Below, piece after piece: positions 31,731 through 39,274 of a stretch of 47,987 nucleotides of DNA (position 1 is its first letter; each line of letters begins with the position of its first letter). The stretch comes from Verrucomicrobiia bacterium (lineage in GTDB: Bacteria > Verrucomicrobiota > Verrucomicrobiia > Verrucomicrobiales > Akkermansiaceae): positions 1 through 47,987 of the forward strand of contig CANHQJ010000026.1 of NCBI GenBank assembly GCA_947462875.1. The letters run 5' to 3'. Both the position numbers and the translations under genes were made by a program. The notes below the pieces were generated by a model. It worked only from the letters and a program-made list of their open reading frames with translations, ran no database searches and was not told the DNA's origin.

Positions 31731-33797
31731 ATGAACCGGACTTCCCATCTCCTCATACTGGCGGGTGCCACTGTTTTCCTCCATGCCGAGGAACCCATCC
31801 GAGAACTCGCGCCTGTGGTAGTGCAGGCACGGAATGCCGGTACATCGCTTACGGTGCCGGATGCGCAGCAAAGTCGTGAGGAACTGCAAAAAACGCCCGG
31901 TGGCACGGAAGTGGTGGATGCGGAGCGATATCTGTTAGGCCGATCCTCGACCCTCGCCGATACGTTTTTCCTTTCGCCCGGAGTGGTGGCCCAGCCACGC
32001 TTCGGTTCTGACGAGGCACGTCTTTCCATTCGCGGCTCCGGTTTGCAACGGACCTTCCACGGTCGCGGCATTCGGGTGATGCAGGACGGTGTGCCGATCA
32101 ATCTCGCCGATGGCGGCTTCGATATGCAGGCATTGGAACCCACGGCGATCGATTACATCAACGTCTGGCGTGGGGGGAACGCCCTGGCATATGGAGCCTC
32201 GACTCTCGGAGGGGCTATCGATTACATCTCGCACACGGGCGCCACATCACCCGGAACGACATGGCGCACCGAGGCGGGATCATGGGACTACTGGCGATCG
32301 ACCCTGTCCCATGGATGGAGTGATGCCTCACGGGATCTCTTCGTATCCCTTACCTCGCAGCAACAGGACGGTTTCCGCGAGCATGCCGGGCAGGAAAACC
32401 TGCGACTCTTCGGCAATGCCGGATGGCGTCCTGATGACAGTCGCGAATCGCGGTTTTACCTCAGTGCCATACGGACGCGCTCCGAGCTTCCCGGCGCTCT
32501 TACCAGCAAGCAGATGTTCGATGATCCCCGCCAGGCGAATGGCGCGAATCTGTTGCGCGATCAACGTCGCGACTTCGATCTCATGAGAGTGGCGAACAAA
32601 AGCACCTTGCGCTCGGGCGATTATTCGTTGGAGCTGTTTGGGGCGATGACCTACAAGGACCTGAATCATCCGATTTTTCAAGTGTTGGACCAGCTTTCCC
32701 GGGATTTCATGGCAGGTGGAAACCTGACGTATGCCAGTGAGGTGATGGGTCGTGAAAATCGACTGAAAGCCGGGGTGCTGTTCACTCATGGCGAAACCAA
32801 TGCCGCGCAGTTCGCTTATACTTCTCCCACTTCATCGCGGCGCGGTGCCAAGCTCCAGGAGGATGATCAAAAGGCCACCAATGTTGAGGCGTTCATCGAA
32901 GACCAATATGATCTGGGTCGTGGCTTCACAGGCGTGTTGGGAATGATCGCATCGCACAACCGGCGCAAAAACACACGCGAATCCGGCCCTGTGAATCCAT
33001 CCACGAATTATGATTTGAAATACGATCAAATCGCACCCAAGATCGGTATGCGCTGGGATGGCATGGGCATGCAGTTTTTCGCCAATGTTTCAGGCAGCTA
33101 CGAACCGCCCTCGTTCAGCGAAACCGTCACCGCGAACACCGCCCGCGATGCGCAAACGGCGACCACATGGGAAATCGGCACCAGGGGTAAAAAAGAGTTC
33201 CTGCGCTGGGATCTGGCATTGTATCACTCGGACCTTGAAGACGAGTTGCTAGCCGTGCTGGATCCGGCGACGAATCTGAGCACCACCACCAATGCGGACA
33301 AGACCACGCATGCGGGCATCGAACTGGGCACGGAAATCGATTTGTTGGGACAATCCTGGGACAACGCCGCCCGGAACCGTCTGGTTTTGGCAGCGGCCTG
33401 GACTTACGGACGATTCAAGTTTGAGGAACATCGCTCCGCGGGCTATGATTATTCAGGGAATAGCATCGCCGGCCTGCCGCCTCACCTGATCCGCGCGGAA
33501 CTGATGTGGCGAAATGCTGCCGGCTACTATGCGGGCCCTACCTGCGAATGGGTGCCTCAGGGAGGATACATCGATCATCGCAATACCCTGAAAAGCGATG
33601 GCTACGCCTTATTCGGATTGCGCGTGGGCAAACAAACCGAAGAGGGGATCTCCTGGTTCGTGGAGGCTCGCAACCTGACCGATCAGATTCATGCCGCGAC
33701 AACCGGAGTCATCGACAACGCCAACGGAACTGATGTGGCCCAATTCCTCCCCGGCGATGGACTGGGTGTGTTCTCAGGAATGGAAATCCATTGGTGA
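31731..33797 (+). CDS. TonB-dependent outer-membrane receptor
   Basis: 688 residues. Signal peptide MNRTSHLLILAGATVFLHA, then an N-terminal plug domain (about 50-165) with ARLSIRGSGLQRTF, IRVMQDGVPINLADGG and WRGGNALAYGASTLGGAID, followed by a beta-barrel with alternating aromatic strands ending in an aromatic C-terminus (MEIHW). The TonB box is near 25-35 (PVVVQARN). This plug form is found in ferric-siderophore and copper/vitamin receptors such as the OprC and FecA groups; substrate cannot be chosen. It is divergent from the RegB-like kinase, so redox control of metal uptake is plausible. No Shine-Dalgarno is present. Confidence 0.9.
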   Translation: MNRTSHLLILAGATVFLHAEEPIRELAPVVVQARNAGTSLTVPDAQQSREELQKTPGGTEVVDAERYLLGRSSTLADTFFLSPGVVAQPRFGSDEARLSIRGSGLQRTFHGRGIRVMQDGVPINLADGGFDMQALEPTAIDYINVWRGGNALAYGASTLGGAIDYISHTGATSPGTTWRTEAGSWDYWRSTLSHGWSDASRDLFVSLTSQQQDGFREHAGQENLRLFGNAGWRPDDSRESRFYLSAIRTRSELPGALTSKQMFDDPRQANGANLLRDQRRDFDLMRVANKSTLRSGDYSLELFGAMTYKDLNHPIFQVLDQLSRDFMAGGNLTYASEVMGRENRLKAGVLFTHGETNAAQFAYTSPTSSRRGAKLQEDDQKATNVEAFIEDQYDLGRGFTGVLGMIASHNRRKNTRESGPVNPSTNYDLKYDQIAPKIGMRWDGMGMQFFANVSGSYEPPSFSETVTANTARDAQTATTWEIGTRGKKEFLRWDLALYHSDLEDELLAVLDPATNLSTTTNADKTTHAGIELGTEIDLLGQSWDNAARNRLVLAAAWTYGRFKFEEHRSAGYDYSGNSIAGLPPHLIRAELMWRNAAGYYAGPTCEWVPQGGYIDHRNTLKSDGYALFGLRVGKQTEEGISWFVEARNLTDQIHAATTGVIDNANGTDVAQFLPGDGLGVFSGMEIHW

Positions 33798-34109: not shown

Positions 34110-35210
34110 TCAGTCCAGCTTGCGCTTGGGCGCGGGCTTGGCGGGGGCGGCGCCGGGTTTGGGCGGGGGCGGTTGCTCGAGGCGGTTCACTTCGAAGTCG
34201 AGCGGTGCCTGGTAGTAGGTATTGCCATCGATCTCCCAACCGCAGGGGATATTGAAACTATCGGCGATCTCGCGCGCCTTGATGTAGGTGGCGAATCCGT
34301 TGGGGTTCACCTTGAAAATCAGCACGCTGCGCGGCGACGAGCGCACGCGGTTGCAGACATTGTGGAAGCGGCCTTTTTCCTGTTCCATATCGGCCAGCGA
34401 GGCATCGCCTTTTTTCGGGTCGAAGGTGATGCGGTAATTCAATCGCGTCCATGGTTTGTTGTAGGGCACGCTGATCGATTGATTGCGCACCTTGAGATTG
34501 CGTTGGGCGTAGAACTGTACGATTTTTTCCTGGTCGTAAATGCGCACGTCGGCCTTTTTCGGGATCTTGCGGAGTTCGCGGAACAGCAAACGCTCGTTGC
34601 TCTTGAACTCGGCCATGACCATTTTTTCCGCTTCGTAGGGATCGACGAAATGCGCCTGATCGCCGACGATGTAGCAGTAGTAAATGTCAGCCGTTTCCGG
34701 GATGTCGCGGCTGTTAGGGATCTTGACGACGGTGGCTTGCGGTGCCTTGGGGATCGGGGTTTCATCGAGCAAGGCCTTGATGCGGTTGATCTCCGCAAGA
34801 ATGGTATCGGTTTTCTTGCGCTCCTCCGCTTCGGTCTTCTTCTGCGCCTCGACCTGTTTTTTCAACTGATCGAGTGCCATCAGGCCGGCGCTGTGTTTTT
34901 TCAGGGAATCCTCCATCAGCGAGAGATCCGCTTCGATTTTTCCGAGCTCCTGCGGGGTGGGTTCCGGTGCCTTGAGCAGCTCCTGTTGTTTTTTGATTTG
35001 CTGCTGGATTTGCGCCTGTTGCTGCTGGGCGGCGACGATTTGTTCGGGCGAGGCAGGTTTGAGGTCGTTGAGCATTTTTTCGACCGTATTGCTGACATCC
35101 ATTTGCAGCAGGATGAGGATCACGATGAGAACGGCCACGACATTGGTGAGGGCATCCATCAAGGAGTCCATGCTCACCGCTTCCGAGTCGTTGGATTTTT
35201 TTCGCGCCAT
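34110..35210 (-). CDS. ExbD/MotB-like membrane subunit with coiled coil (Asp-bearing)
   Basis: 366 residues. One membrane helix at about 19-36 (DALTNVVAVLIVILILL), preceded by Asp15 and Asp19; Asp19 sits where ExbD and TolR carry the proton-binding aspartate. A long coiled coil follows (50-150, rich in Gln, Glu and Lys), then a periplasmic domain (165-345) of unknown fold and a Pro/Lys-rich tail. No OmpA-like peptidoglycan-binding domain is seen, unlike MotB or ZorB. It starts 4 bp after the stop of the related gene at 35215 and ends the four-gene unit. Confidence 0.72.
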   Translation of the reverse strand: MARKKSNDSEAVSMDSLMDALTNVVAVLIVILILLQMDVSNTVEKMLNDLKPASPEQIVAAQQQQAQIQQQIKKQQELLKAPEPTPQELGKIEADLSLMEDSLKKHSAGLMALDQLKKQVEAQKKTEAEERKKTDTILAEINRIKALLDETPIPKAPQATVVKIPNSRDIPETADIYYCYIVGDQAHFVDPYEAEKMVMAEFKSNERLLFRELRKIPKKADVRIYDQEKIVQFYAQRNLKVRNQSISVPYNKPWTRLNYRITFDPKKGDASLADMEQEKGRFHNVCNRVRSSPRSVLIFKVNPNGFATYIKAREIADSFNIPCGWEIDGNTYYQAPLDFEVNRLEQPPPPKPGAAPAKPAPKRKLD

Positions 35211-35214
35211 GATT

Positions 35215-36027
35215 CTATCGTTTCAGGAAGAGGGAGAGATCGATTTCCCCTTGGGTGGGGACGGGAAGCTTGCCGATGCGCAGGTTGTACTTGGTCTCCG
35301 CATGGCCGCCCGCCGTGCGGAAGGTGCCGTGACCATCGGCGCGGATGAGGAAAAGAACGAGGTGCTCTCTGGCGGATTTGAGCGTGTTGAAGGTGCTCGC
35401 GAGCTTGCCATCGGTCTCGATCGTGGCGGCGGATATGTTGGTCTTGCCGCCGCTTTTGTCGAGAATGACCAGGCCGTTCGCGTTGCATTCGATGAAGACC
35501 AGTTCCGTGTTGGCGGAAATGCCCGAGCCGGCGGGGTTGATGCGCACAGGCTGGGGCTTCGTATCCGGCTTGATCTTACGGCGTTCCAGCTCCGCCTTGA
35601 GCTCGGCGAGTTGTTTTTCGAGCGAGGGACGTTCTTTTTTGAAGGCGGCGATCTGGTCGATGAGCTGCTCTAACATTTTTTGCAGCGCCTCATCCGATTC
35701 CTTCGGCGCGGCCTTGGTGTCGGCCAACTGCTTGCGCAGCATGATGCGTTTGTTTTCCAGTTCGCTGAGCTCGACCAGTGCCGCGTTGCGCTCCTTGAGA
35801 ACGGCTTTGATTTTCGTCAGCTCCTTTTCCTGCTTTTTGATTTCGCTCTGGATTTGCTGGAACTGTTTGGCGCGCGCCATTTCCTGCTCATCGCGACCGA
35901 CGTTTTCCTGTGCCTTGATGTCGGTGATGATTTTGATCATCATCGTGAGCACACCGATCAAACAGGCCAGGATGCTCAAAAACGGGAAGAGCGAGACTCC
36001 GGTGGAACTGGATTGTCGGCGTGACAT
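35215..36027 (-). CDS. ExbD/MotB-like membrane subunit, Asp-less
   Basis: 270 residues. The N-terminus MSRRQSSSTGVSLFPFLSIL and helix 11-31 give one membrane pass with no acidic residue; the first Asp is at 36, beyond the helix. Residues 40-170 form a coiled coil (LERRKIKPD, KEVELKK-like heptads), followed by a periplasmic domain of about 100 residues. Proteins starting with a LFPFL-x-ILxCxxG helix are common and unexplained in Planctomycetes and Verrucomicrobia. Same plan as its downstream neighbour at 34110, suggesting two non-identical B-type subunits. 21 bp after the ExbB-like gene. Confidence 0.7.
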   Translation of the reverse strand: MSRRQSSSTGVSLFPFLSILACLIGVLTMMIKIITDIKAQENVGRDEQEMARAKQFQQIQSEIKKQEKELTKIKAVLKERNAALVELSELENKRIMLRKQLADTKAAPKESDEALQKMLEQLIDQIAAFKKERPSLEKQLAELKAELERRKIKPDTKPQPVRINPAGSGISANTELVFIECNANGLVILDKSGGKTNISAATIETDGKLASTFNTLKSAREHLVLFLIRADGHGTFRTAGGHAETKYNLRIGKLPVPTQGEIDLSLFLKR

Positions 36028-36048
36028 GGGCGTGGGTGAGGGGAACGA

Positions 36049-37368
36049 TCAGCGCGAGAACAGGCCTTTTTTCTTGATGGTGATGGTTTCGCCGCCGAGT
36101 TGTTTCAAGGTGCTGTTGAGCGACTCCACGCCTTTCGAGAGCGAGGCGAAGTATTCGTTGAGCTGGGCGGCCGGCAGGATAAAGGCATCGCGCGTTTCCG
36201 AAGTGAGCTTGTCCACCGCGTGCTGGAAGGTGCCTTCGACCTTGGTCTGATGGGCATCTAGTCGCGTCTTGAGCGTTTCTCCGGCATCGCGCAGGATGGT
36301 GGAGGCATCCTGGAGCTTGACGAGGAAGACCTCGTGAGCGCGGGAGAGCGAGGCGGCGAAGGCGGGGATGTTTTCGGCTTGGGACAGCAGAAGGTCATCC
36401 GTCGCGTTTTTCGAGTCGTTCAATTTCGGCAGGAGTTTTTCCGTGCAGAAGGCATCGATCTCGGTGAGCATTTCCTCCTCTTCTTTTTGCATCACCGCCA
36501 TCGGGAACGACATGATCATCGAGAGGATGAGGCCGAGCAAGGTGGTATCGAACGCCACGCCGAGGCCGCTGGTGAGGTTGTTGATGGAAGCCTTGAGCGC
36601 CTCGGGGTCGGTGGATCCGGCGGACAGCGAGCTGACGGCCTGGGACAAGCCTTGCACCGTGCCGATGAAGCCGAGGATGGGAATGGCCCAGAGGAACACT
36701 TTCAGCAGCGTATAGGAGCCGGTGATGCGGTTCGCGTCGATGTCCGACTGCGCCGACAGGAACGTGGCGACCTCGCCGTTGTTGTTGCGCTTTTCAAACA
36801 GCTCCATGCCCTTGCGGATGCGGTTGACCATCAGGCTGTCGCGCAGGCGGTGAGGGAGTTTGTAAATGTGATCGATGAATCCGCTGACGGTCTGCGAGTT
36901 GATTTCGCTGCCGAGCTTGCTGGGAACGATATCGAGCAACATCGAGCGGCGCTGGCGTTTGGTTTTTTTCCACTTCATCACCAGAATGGCGCAACCCCAG
37001 ATGAAGAGGAATACTTCCGCGTAGTTGACCCAGCCGCGACGCAGGAACAGATCGCCGAATTTCGGCTCCTGAGGTGTCGGGCCTAACAGGGGAATCATGG
37101 CCACGAGGAACAGGGTGCTGATGACAACTCCGAAGGCCAGGCTGACGAAAAAATTGACATTGGCATGATCCTCTTCCGCCCATCCTCCACGTTGCCCTTG
37201 CGCTGCTTGGTTGGCACCCGTGGCATTCGTTTGAGCTGACTTTACGGGGCCCGTGGGGAGCGGTGGGATCTGGAACTTGCCGTTGCAACCGGGGCAGGCG
37301 ACGATTTTACCGGCGTGTTCGTCTTCAGCGGTCATGCTGAGTTGGCAATGTGGGCATTGGAATTCCAT
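36049..37368 (-). CDS. MotA/TolQ/ExbB proton-channel protein with zinc ribbon
   Basis: 439 residues. A zinc ribbon comes first (CPHC at 5-8, CPGC at 25-28), as in many proteins of this phylum. Membrane helices follow near 77-97 and 115-132, and a conserved pair near 225-245 and 275-300 holds IPILGFIGTVQGLSQAV and FDTTLLGLILSMIM, the ExbB/TolQ channel motif. About 130 residues of coiled coil (310-430) form a cytoplasmic tail, which is longer than in ExbB and recalls ZorA. Likely to use the proton motive force with the two ExbD-like subunits downstream. A 91-bp gap precedes it after the BatA-like gene. Confidence 0.85.
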   Translation of the reverse strand: MEFQCPHCQLSMTAEDEHAGKIVACPGCNGKFQIPPLPTGPVKSAQTNATGANQAAQGQRGGWAEEDHANVNFFVSLAFGVVISTLFLVAMIPLLGPTPQEPKFGDLFLRRGWVNYAEVFLFIWGCAILVMKWKKTKRQRRSMLLDIVPSKLGSEINSQTVSGFIDHIYKLPHRLRDSLMVNRIRKGMELFEKRNNNGEVATFLSAQSDIDANRITGSYTLLKVFLWAIPILGFIGTVQGLSQAVSSLSAGSTDPEALKASINNLTSGLGVAFDTTLLGLILSMIMSFPMAVMQKEEEEMLTEIDAFCTEKLLPKLNDSKNATDDLLLSQAENIPAFAASLSRAHEVFLVKLQDASTILRDAGETLKTRLDAHQTKVEGTFQHAVDKLTSETRDAFILPAAQLNEYFASLSKGVESLNSTLKQLGGETITIKKKGLFSR

Positions 37369-37459
37369 AGGGTTGTGAGGTGGAAGGGTTGCGTAAGATG
37401 ACTACCTTGCCGAGGCTACTCTGACGAGGGAATTTTGCAAAAGTGCAAGAGTGTCATAA

Positions 37460-39274
37460 TCAGGAGACGGGGGCGGGGGACAGCACGGGGGACGAGGGGC
37501 GGTCGCGCTCGCGGGTGAAATGCCACGATGCGAGCAGCACGACGATGAGTGCGAGGAGCCAGAGATGCCAGTAGGGGTCACCTTTGCTGTGCGCCTGAAT
37601 GGCGGCGGCCTGGGCCTCGCCTAACTGATTCTTCTCGGCGCATGCACGGAAATCGGCCTCGCGGGTATCAGCAAAAAACGTGCTGGCCTCGAGCAGCGTG
37701 ATCTCGCCTTGCTGGTAGCGGAAGTGACCGGGGAGTTCGGGCGCGGTGAGTGGCACATTGGGATCGATGGCGGTGGTGCGCAGAACCTGCCCCTGCGCAT
37801 CCAGTTCCAGCAGACGCAACGGGGTGGGTGGCGTGGTGTCTTTGGTGGCGATGCTGAGCGGCTGCGCGGTTTCGAGATTGATCTGAGCCGGGGCGACTTT
37901 GCGCGCGCGGACTTGCTCGATGAAACGCAGCAGGATCACGATCATGGCGGGCTGGGTCTCGATGTTCGAGAGGCGTGGATCGAAATTGAACAACAACTGC
38001 TGGCTGGCGGGGCGCTCGGGGGTGGCGGGGATGTCGCGCAGCAATATCAGCACGCGTTTGTCCTGGTAGAGCAGGGGCTGATCGGTGGGGCGGATTTCCA
38101 GTGCGATGGTCTCGCGAATCATCAGTGACTGCCAGTTCAGTCCATCGAGCAGAGGATGTTTTTCCGCAATGATTCCGCCAGAGAGATACTGCCCGCCCTG
38201 CGTGCCGTCATTGACGAAGATGACGGCATTTCCCTGGATCGGAGTTGGGTCGAGCGGATCGTAGGAGACCAAGGAAACATCCGCCTCGGCAGGACTGCCC
38301 GGCTTCAGTTGTTCGATCGAGCGCAGGAGTTTTTTCGACAGGGCGTCGAGTGCGGGAGCGGTGTGGATGCTGAGCTGTTTGGGCATCGGTCGCACCAGGC
38401 GCAGGGTGTCATCGGTGGTGAACTCGTCGTTCGAGAGCCGCAGCTCTATGCGCTGGCTCTGGCTGGGGAAATTCGATTGCAGGGTGACGAGGCTGCGCGC
38501 GGGGAGTTCGATGGTTTTGGGGGCCGTGGGTGTGCCTTTGCCGGTATCGACTTGCCAGGTGCGGGTGGTAGCCTGTTCGGAATAGTTCTGCACCGTCGCG
38601 CGCCAGAGCAAGGTGCCGTCTTTTGTCTCGAACGAGACACCCGTGAAGCCGACATTTTCGATGGGCTTGCCCATGCACAACTGGATGGCATCGAAGGGGA
38701 GCGATTCCGCGGGGGTATCGCTGACATACATCACAATGCCCTCGCGAGAAACGAGCGAGCGGGCGAGTCGCAGTGCCTGATCGGGATCGGTGACGCCGGC
38801 GAGCGGACGCCAGGATTGCAAGGTGGCGAGCAGTTCTTCCGTCGATTTCCCCGCATACAAGCGCGGTTTGCCGGGCGTCGATTCCAGCACGGTGTATTCG
38901 ACATCGGTCGCGAATCCCTTGAGCGGTGGCAATTCTTTTGCCAGCAGTTCCATCATGCGCTGCTGACTGACCGACATGGATGCCGAGGAATCAAGGACCA
39001 GAGCGATGCGCTGGGTGCTGCGGGCGAGGGGGAAACGCGGCTCGACCATCAGCCAGGTGAGCAGTAGCACGCCCAGCAGCTGCATCCACAGCGGGATCGA
39101 TTGCGTGAGGCGATCGAAATGACGGCCGCTGCTCGCCTCGCGCTGGGTTTTTTCCAACAGAAACAATGTCGATACCGGAATGACCTGCGCCTTGCGCTGT
39201 AGGTAGTGGATCAGGATCACGGCGGGAATCCCCAGCAAGGCCCAAAGACCAGCGGGATTGGCAAAACTCGGCAT
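37460..39274 (-). CDS. BatA-like VWA membrane protein
   Basis: 604 residues. The N-terminus (FANPAGLWALLGIPAVILIH, then YLQRKAQ) is the aerotolerance-regulator BatA-type membrane start, with a second helix near 62-78. A VWA domain begins with the adhesion site LVLDSSASMSVSQQ near residue 96 and carries the Asp of MYVSDTPAES. A long beta-rich extracytoplasmic region follows and the C-terminal helix is WHLWLLALIVVLLASWHF. BatA proteins work with MoxR ATPases in Bacteroidetes, but no MoxR gene is here. First of four genes ending at 34110. Confidence 0.82.
   Translation of the reverse strand: MPSFANPAGLWALLGIPAVILIHYLQRKAQVIPVSTLFLLEKTQREASSGRHFDRLTQSIPLWMQLLGVLLLTWLMVEPRFPLARSTQRIALVLDSSASMSVSQQRMMELLAKELPPLKGFATDVEYTVLESTPGKPRLYAGKSTEELLATLQSWRPLAGVTDPDQALRLARSLVSREGIVMYVSDTPAESLPFDAIQLCMGKPIENVGFTGVSFETKDGTLLWRATVQNYSEQATTRTWQVDTGKGTPTAPKTIELPARSLVTLQSNFPSQSQRIELRLSNDEFTTDDTLRLVRPMPKQLSIHTAPALDALSKKLLRSIEQLKPGSPAEADVSLVSYDPLDPTPIQGNAVIFVNDGTQGGQYLSGGIIAEKHPLLDGLNWQSLMIRETIALEIRPTDQPLLYQDKRVLILLRDIPATPERPASQQLLFNFDPRLSNIETQPAMIVILLRFIEQVRARKVAPAQINLETAQPLSIATKDTTPPTPLRLLELDAQGQVLRTTAIDPNVPLTAPELPGHFRYQQGEITLLEASTFFADTREADFRACAEKNQLGEAQAAAIQAHSKGDPYWHLWLLALIVVLLASWHFTRERDRPSSPVLSPAPVS

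Follow-up and report, generated by a model that had tools for sequence, protein, structure and literature searches.

A candidate proton-driven motor with two unlike TolR-like subunits in Verrucomicrobiota

What kind of membrane machine is specified when a channel gene of the MotA/TolQ/ExbB family is followed by two genes for long single-pass proteins instead of one? The question is raised by a contig of 47,987 nucleotides from a Verrucomicrobiia bacterium of the Akkermansiaceae (GenBank CANHQJ010000026.1), which we call the window and which is one entire contig (G000:C26) of an assembly of 3.95 Mb with a completeness of 97.7%. An earlier note on this DNA had described four minus-strand genes, encoding a BatA-like VWA protein, an ExbB/MotA-like channel (here A) and two single-pass subunits (B1 and B2), as a candidate membrane motor. 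All four open reading frames (ORFs) are present, with gaps of 91 bp (VWA/A), 21 bp (A/B1) and 4 bp (B1/B2), and the description of their products agrees with Pfam (BatA, MotA_ExbB) and with hydropathy, by which the VWA protein has three membrane segments, A four, and B1 and B2 one each. We propose, with a probability of about 0.6, that A, B1 and B2 form a proton-driven motor of the TolQR/ExbBD type (5:2), whose axle would be a heterodimer of two unlike TolR-like proteins.

A conserved gene triad and its channel subunit

The gene order A, B1, B2 is repeated across many genomes, far beyond chance. Of 57 genomes in the set of relatives, 29 yielded B1, among them G004, whose copy (G004:C4) is 98% identical to that of the window, and at 26 of the 28 relatives' loci the three genes follow one another in this order on one strand; one of the two exceptions (L058) is cut by a contig end. 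In a second sample, the best 80 of 295 B2 relatives in genome contigs, all from Verrucomicrobiota, the triad is adjacent and in order at 71 loci and the remaining 9 are truncated at contig ends; 11 of these 80 loci lie on contigs already represented in the relatives' set. At one locus (L051:3687-4738) the B2 reading is divided between two overlapping ORFs, possibly through a frameshift in that assembly. An A-type channel with two B-type partners thus stands as a conserved unit. This recurrence contradicts the refuting possibility named in the earlier note, that the two coiled-coil proteins are never found together with genes of ExbB type.

The A subunit (36049-37368, minus strand, 439 aa) was characterised by Pfam, hydropathy, conservation and alignment to PomA. 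It belongs to the MotA_ExbB family (PF01618; 43.7 bits against a gathering cut-off of 22.9), and its predicted membrane segments span residues 74-92, 113-131, 220-238 and 275-293. The protein combines an N-terminal CxxC...CxxC motif, which is zinc-ribbon-like although the zinc-ribbon Pfam matches are sub-threshold, with a MotA/TolQ/ExbB channel domain and a C-terminal coiled coil; residues after about 300 give coiled-coil matches in a search of Protein Data Bank (PDB) sequences. Against the same PDB sequences, the whole-protein profiles of A and of B1 returned almost only coiled-coil matches, and with the core of A as query the matches, to PomA, MotA and a ZorA, were weak (best E 0.011). Within the classes of loci that we label I to VI in this analysis, two N-terminal CxxC pairs are seen on A in 7 of the 11 printed class I rows and in all four class II rows, and a single pair in one further class I row; the cyanobacterial rows and L211 have no such pair, and none of the printed rows of classes III-VI has the two pairs.

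A distinctive feature of A is an acid in the channel ring. Asp274 immediately precedes a Thr-Thr pair that aligns to the pore threonines of PomA, and across 135 A subunits this position is occupied by Asp (122), Glu (9), Asn (2) or Tyr (2). An acid is therefore present in 131 of 135, against none of 24 readable ordinary ExbBs, which come from 31 loci fetched from five related genomes as a subset of the matches (20 motifs read by pattern, 4 by eye, and 7 of the 31 dropped as unreadable). The aligned residue is Leu in PomA, Ile in MotA (8gqy) and Leu in 8vvn, a 696-residue MotA/TolQ/ExbB protein that, judged by its length, is probably ZorA. Both rows with Tyr274 belong to class VI, whose B1 and B2 each keep the usual Asp. 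The A subunits of paired-B loci also form a group separate from ordinary ExbBs, with one branch (support 100) dividing all 134 of them from the 24.

The paired B subunits and their acid pattern

B1 (35215-36027, minus strand, 270 aa) and B2 (34110-35210, minus strand, 366 aa) were analysed by alignment, AlphaFold2 modelling and fold matching. The earlier note had called them two different subunits; the two look homologous, with an HHalign probability of 99.35% (E 6.3e-21), a score to which the coiled coils contribute and in which the membrane helix and the C-terminal part align as well. Both models (mean pLDDT 77.9 and 78.9, pTM 0.39 and 0.54 for B1 and B2, respectively) consist of a membrane helix, a helical stem to about residue 150 and a C-terminal alpha-beta domain. 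When ranked by Z among the chains placed highest by Foldseek, E. coli TolR (5by4) comes first for both models, with Z = 7.1 over 87 residues at 3.0 Å for B1 and Z = 6.0 over 93 residues at 3.5 Å for B2, the latter 1.7 Z above the next row. Foldseek itself ranked TolR 31st for B2, and for B1 gave the ExbDs 8p9r and 8vgc a probability of 0.97 with target TM values of 0.66 and 0.65, the highest among the 50 matches listed. The C-terminal domain of B1 is accordingly predicted to be TolR-like, and that of B2 TolR-like and enlarged.

Measured from the proton site to the conserved Gly or Pro beyond the stem, the stems are 149 residues long in B1 and 146 in B2; across loci the two lengths show no co-variation (Spearman -0.07, n = 91). 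B2 continues into a proline-rich tail that ends in Leu-Asp (34113-34118). A hydrophobic residue followed by Asp closes 103 of 105 class I/II B2 proteins; this C-terminus is a possible docking end.

The two helices differ at the proton site. B1 has Ser18 (LFPFLSILAC) at what we take, from the motif by which the ExbDs were also aligned, to be the position of the Asp of ExbD and MotB. B2 (MDSLMDALTN) has Asp19 there, and one helix turn nearer the N-terminus it has another acid, Asp15. Both motifs could be read in 129 pairs from 134 loci, five loci being dropped with one motif unreadable. The site Asp of B2 is found in 129 of 129 pairs, a count in which the motif search itself fixed the Asp and any B2 without it would fall among the five unreadable loci, two of which (L119, L051) have Asp19 according to alignment or ORF. 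B1 is without an acid at its site in 73 of the 129, and 115 pairs hold exactly two acids.

Written as B1-18/B2-15/B2-19 in window numbering, the residues of classes I and II and the cyanobacteria fall into two types, S/D/D (49) and D/V/D (43), in 92 non-duplicate readable pairs (11 loci were dropped as identical sequences and 4 of 96 rows for an unreadable position). Across all 129 pairs, B1 without an acid is seen as S/D/D (57), C/D/D (7), A/D/D (4), N/S/D (3), P/D/D (1) and T/D/D (1), and B1 with Asp as D/V/D (42), D/E/D (9), D/T/D (2), D/D/D (2) and D/N/D (1). With the B1 site in classes III-VI anchored on a neighbouring motif residue and not placed by profile, class III combines an acid-free B1 with two acids on B2, class IV has Asp on B1 together with two acids on B2 (Glu or Asp, plus Asp), class V has Asn on B1 and one acid on B2, and class VI has one Asp on each. 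A strict rule of two acids per pair, unbroken in the 92 pairs, is broken in 14 of the 129, and what is left is a tendency.

Duplicates were removed before trees and residue counts, and A rows shorter than 400 aa (90-subunit tree) or 250 aa (134-locus tree) were dropped. On the latter, a FastTree tree with long branches that makes the event count rough, the B1 acid changes six times and the second B2 acid five times. In six independent pairs, B2 moved in the direction opposite to B1 in about 4.9, showed no difference in about 1.1 and never moved the same way.

The proposed motor and its precedents

Models of MotAB, ExbBD and TolQR are built on a pair of identical axle helices, each with a single essential Asp. 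For the present proteins we infer an assembly in which five A subunits would form a ring with one B1 and one B2 helix inside it, both helices extending as stems of about equal length and ending in TolR-like periplasmic domains. In the subtype of the window the proton-carrying acids would lie on B2 only (Asp19 and Asp15), with Ser on B1; in the sister subtype each helix would contribute one Asp. The ring would add an extra acid, Asp274 of A, beside the pore threonines, and rotation or tilting of the B1-B2 pair may perform mechanical work on the cell envelope. Because of the TolR-like fold and the neighbouring genes, an envelope motor is the function we favour for the chromosomal types.

We tentatively go one step further and suggest that axle symmetry is broken in these motors, in that two unlike TolR-like helices might share the pore, acids might move between them in the course of evolution, and ring acids might stand by the threonines. 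If this were true, such a motor could work without the alternating protonation of two equivalent axle acids. A motor found in nature whose two axles differ, with the acid missing from one of them, would reveal how much of the identical-axle model is necessary, and A-B1-B2 offers a ready system for placing carboxylates one at a time.

Several results weigh against the heterodimeric motor. B1 and B2 of the window have no Pfam match above threshold and none to ExbD (PF02472); in a scan of seven divergent B proteins with that model, three reach 15.5-17.8 bits against a cut-off of 25.4 and four give no match. Profile comparison, tried as a route to ExbD homology, is weak, with 25% and 3% against eight ExbDs of the same genome. 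The fold Z values lie below 8 and are middling, unrelated folds come within 1 Z of the TolR match of B1, and the Foldseek E-values are not significant (about 0.05 for B1 against the ExbDs). Nor do the stem lengths of B1 and B2 vary together. As to the acids, the two-acid tendency fails in 14 pairs (three acids in 11, one in 3), the class I/II pattern rests on only two changes on the tree of 90 A subunits, and a sign test of acid exchange over the six independent pairs misses significance (p = 0.0625). The triad, finally, is not seamless: in G008, alone among the 28 relatives' loci, A-B1 (L057) and B2 (L217) lie on different contigs, which may be a true split or an assembly error. In a phylum sample, 55 of 383 genomes had B2-profile matches, an upper figure because many of these cover shorter forms only in part and no A gene was seen at four fetched loci (L202, L204, L225, L227).

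A different use of the same three proteins, in which two homodimeric motors share one kind of A ring, A with B2-B2 being active and A with the acid-free B1-B1 inactive or regulatory, seems to us unlikely. It has a parallel in the gliding motor of Myxococcus, for which AglRQ and AglRS are presented as two potential channels (PMC9389320). The reciprocal tendency of the B1 and B2 acids and the fixed adjacency of the genes, however, fit one shared axle better than two homodimers, and in the sister subtype both B1 and B2 carry Asp.

The premise of the earlier note, that motors of this kind use one A-type and one B-type subunit, does not hold, as three cases illustrate. AglR of Myxococcus works with AglQ and AglS (PMC9389320, PMC3169522) and so shares with the window the combination of one MotA/TolQ-like gene and two TolR-like genes. 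Pfam ExbD recognises AglQ (162 aa) and AglS (194 aa) but neither B1 nor B2 of the window, and both Agl proteins are described as having the conserved Asp, where B1 has Ser; whether they form hetero- or homodimers is stated in PMC9389320 as not known. Closer in taxonomy, PMC12204202 describes heterologous tolR pairs beside tolQ in bacteria of the PVC superphylum, to which the window also belongs, accompanied by TPR and single-pass vWA genes. In that arrangement, too, a TolQ-like gene stands with two unlike TolR-like genes, and class IV loci such as L206 resemble it. The window type differs in its long coiled-coil B subunits, the CxxC pairs on A and the Ser at the B1 site, and it has no linked single-pass VWA gene like that of the PVC force-transducer operon: its VWA protein has three membrane segments, is encoded upstream of A and is unlinked to the motor in most relatives. 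Section 8 of PMC12204202 makes no mention of acid loss or exchange within the TolR pair. The third case is the window's own genome, where two ordinary ExbB loci each have two ExbD genes (G000:C4:56499-57893 and G000:C14:50543-51809), all four ExbDs with Asp at the helix start.

The TolQ-TolR and ExbB-ExbD systems of E. coli share with the window the A domain family, the site Asp on B2 and, as far as the models with their middling scores predict it, a TolR/ExbD-like periplasmic fold, and differ in having one kind of B subunit; for position 274 of A the comparison was with ordinary ExbBs of the five related genomes and not with the E. coli proteins. Essential Asp residues and a Ser/Thr ring are described for the Ton/Tol and Zorya motors (PMC12215075, PMC11890865). 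In the literature searched we found no recognised description of an acid-free TolR partner. The two-B arrangement is thus already known, and what this analysis adds is the loss of the B1 acid and its apparent exchange between the subunits, a pair of B proteins with long stems, and an acid in the ring. An A subunit with AF[DE]TT followed downstream by a B1-B2 pair provides a sequence mark for finding such motors.

Neighbouring genes and the remaining alternatives

The four genes are flanked downstream by a convergent TonB-dependent receptor gene (31731-33797) and upstream by a divergent RecQ gene; a simple sigma-70 promoter scan found 1 site against 1.4 expected. The earlier note had allowed for a defence role of Zorya type. 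ZorA indeed shares with A a MotA-like subunit with a cytoplasmic coiled-coil extension (PMC11890865), and A matches ZorA weakly, at 5e-11 with the PADLOC model and with a best score of 32.2 bits against a curated cut-off of 100 with NCBIfam. For ZorB, a single critical Asp and a domain presumed to bind peptidoglycan are described (PMC11890865); no such domain appears among the Pfam matches of B1 and B2 at E up to 1. The absence of ZorC and ZorD, which the note had stated, was confirmed among the scanned flanking genes, where ZorE was not found either and the adjacent genes are the receptor and RecQ, so no Zorya effector stands beside the motor.

To look beyond the window, we scanned 113 neighbours from 68 class I/II loci, comprising the window's RecQ and 112 of the 164 first neighbours that passed a usability filter (183 in total). 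With PADLOC (E 1e-10), no model had more than two matching members among them; 27 models were matched (25 shown), mostly DpdF helicase models, of a kind that a RecQ would be expected to match, alongside single matches to mad3, mad8, SngC, AriA, PbeA and others. The commoner domain assignments are glycerol-3-phosphate dehydrogenase (GpsA; 5), SRP54-type GTPase (FtsY-like; 4), sulfatases and TonB-dependent receptors (3 each) and NusB (2). No defence island is evident at the Verrucomicrobiota loci. Membership in Zorya was rejected on the sub-cut-off ZorA score, the scanned flanks free of effectors and these 113 neighbours, and the suggested defence role at this locus has not been borne out.

The cyanobacterial homologues have other surroundings. 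Five plasmid records match A. In two of them, from Anabaena cylindrica PCC 7122 and Microcystis aeruginosa NIES-2481, the match extends over 80% or more of the cyanobacterial A, and both plasmids carry A-B1-B2; the matches in Nonomuraea, Rhizobium and Sagittula are partial. On pANACY.03 of Anabaena cylindrica (L039:6357-10547) the triad directly follows a CARF-HEPN gene (protein match E 5.3e-255) and Cmr type III-B genes. A viperin gene lies further along the same plasmid. The Microcystis copy (L040) lies by an N-6 methylase and a DrmD-like helicase. That plasmid (NZ_CP025929.1) has a second place matching the B2 query. Searches of phage records with the cyanobacterial A and of viral contigs with B2 gave no relatives, and the literature search, beyond which further papers may exist, gave no recognised description of a type III CRISPR locus accompanied by a motor of this kind. 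On cyanobacterial plasmids the motor may serve defence, and the homologues connect the envelope-type motor encoded on Verrucomicrobiota chromosomes with a cyanobacterial plasmid counterpart that adjoins type III-B CRISPR genes. A Zorya-like anti-phage motor, to which the weak ZorA matches and the defence genes on these plasmids point, is nevertheless rather improbable as an account of A-B1-B2.

The adjoining receptor gene and the ordinary ExbB-ExbD-ExbD loci of the genome might suggest that A-B1-B2 is an ordinary ExbB-ExbD energiser for that receptor. We regard this as very improbable, as such a receptor is the first neighbour at only three loci (the window, L041 and L042), the A subunits stand apart from ordinary ExbBs, and B1 and B2, which the ExbD Pfam model does not match, greatly exceed ExbD in length.

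The fourth gene, for the BatA-like VWA protein (37460-39274, minus strand, 604 aa; BatA N-terminus at 51.5 bits against a cut-off of 25.9, VWA_2 match sub-threshold), was taken in the earlier note as a partner in the motor. A search of 54 relatives (E 1e-10) recovered it in 45. In the 25 with both VWA and B1 it adjoins the motor in 5 (G000, G001, G002, G004 and G007) and lies on another contig in 20, the match in G044 being short and weak; a further 20 genomes have it without B1, and the window's genome has 8 places with a BatA domain. The VWA gene is therefore a neighbour and not a conserved part of the motor, and the four genes are not conserved together. Short VWA-A gaps (about 91-166 bp) in five congeneric genomes, where the gene is possibly co-transcribed with the motor, and a different VWA gene after B2 at two distant loci are too little to make a single four-gene complex credible, given this independent distribution and the absence of the VWA motif from the two nearest genes on each side in 10 of 12 class IV loci inspected.

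Those two distant loci belong to class IV. L206 (3207-10001) has a large gene, what we take to be a GYF-like gene, A, B1, B2 and then a VWA-domain protein recognised by Pfam, and L207 (1677-9534) has the same order, with the VWA protein after B2 recognised by motif only. In class III, reading by eye of L179:2604-9543 and L183:5642-10001 placed fabZ- and lpxA-like genes and genes resembling those for a type II secretion secretin or ATPase (GspE-like) after B2, and at L179 A and B1 are separated by a gene whose product weakly matches SGL/NHL propellers.

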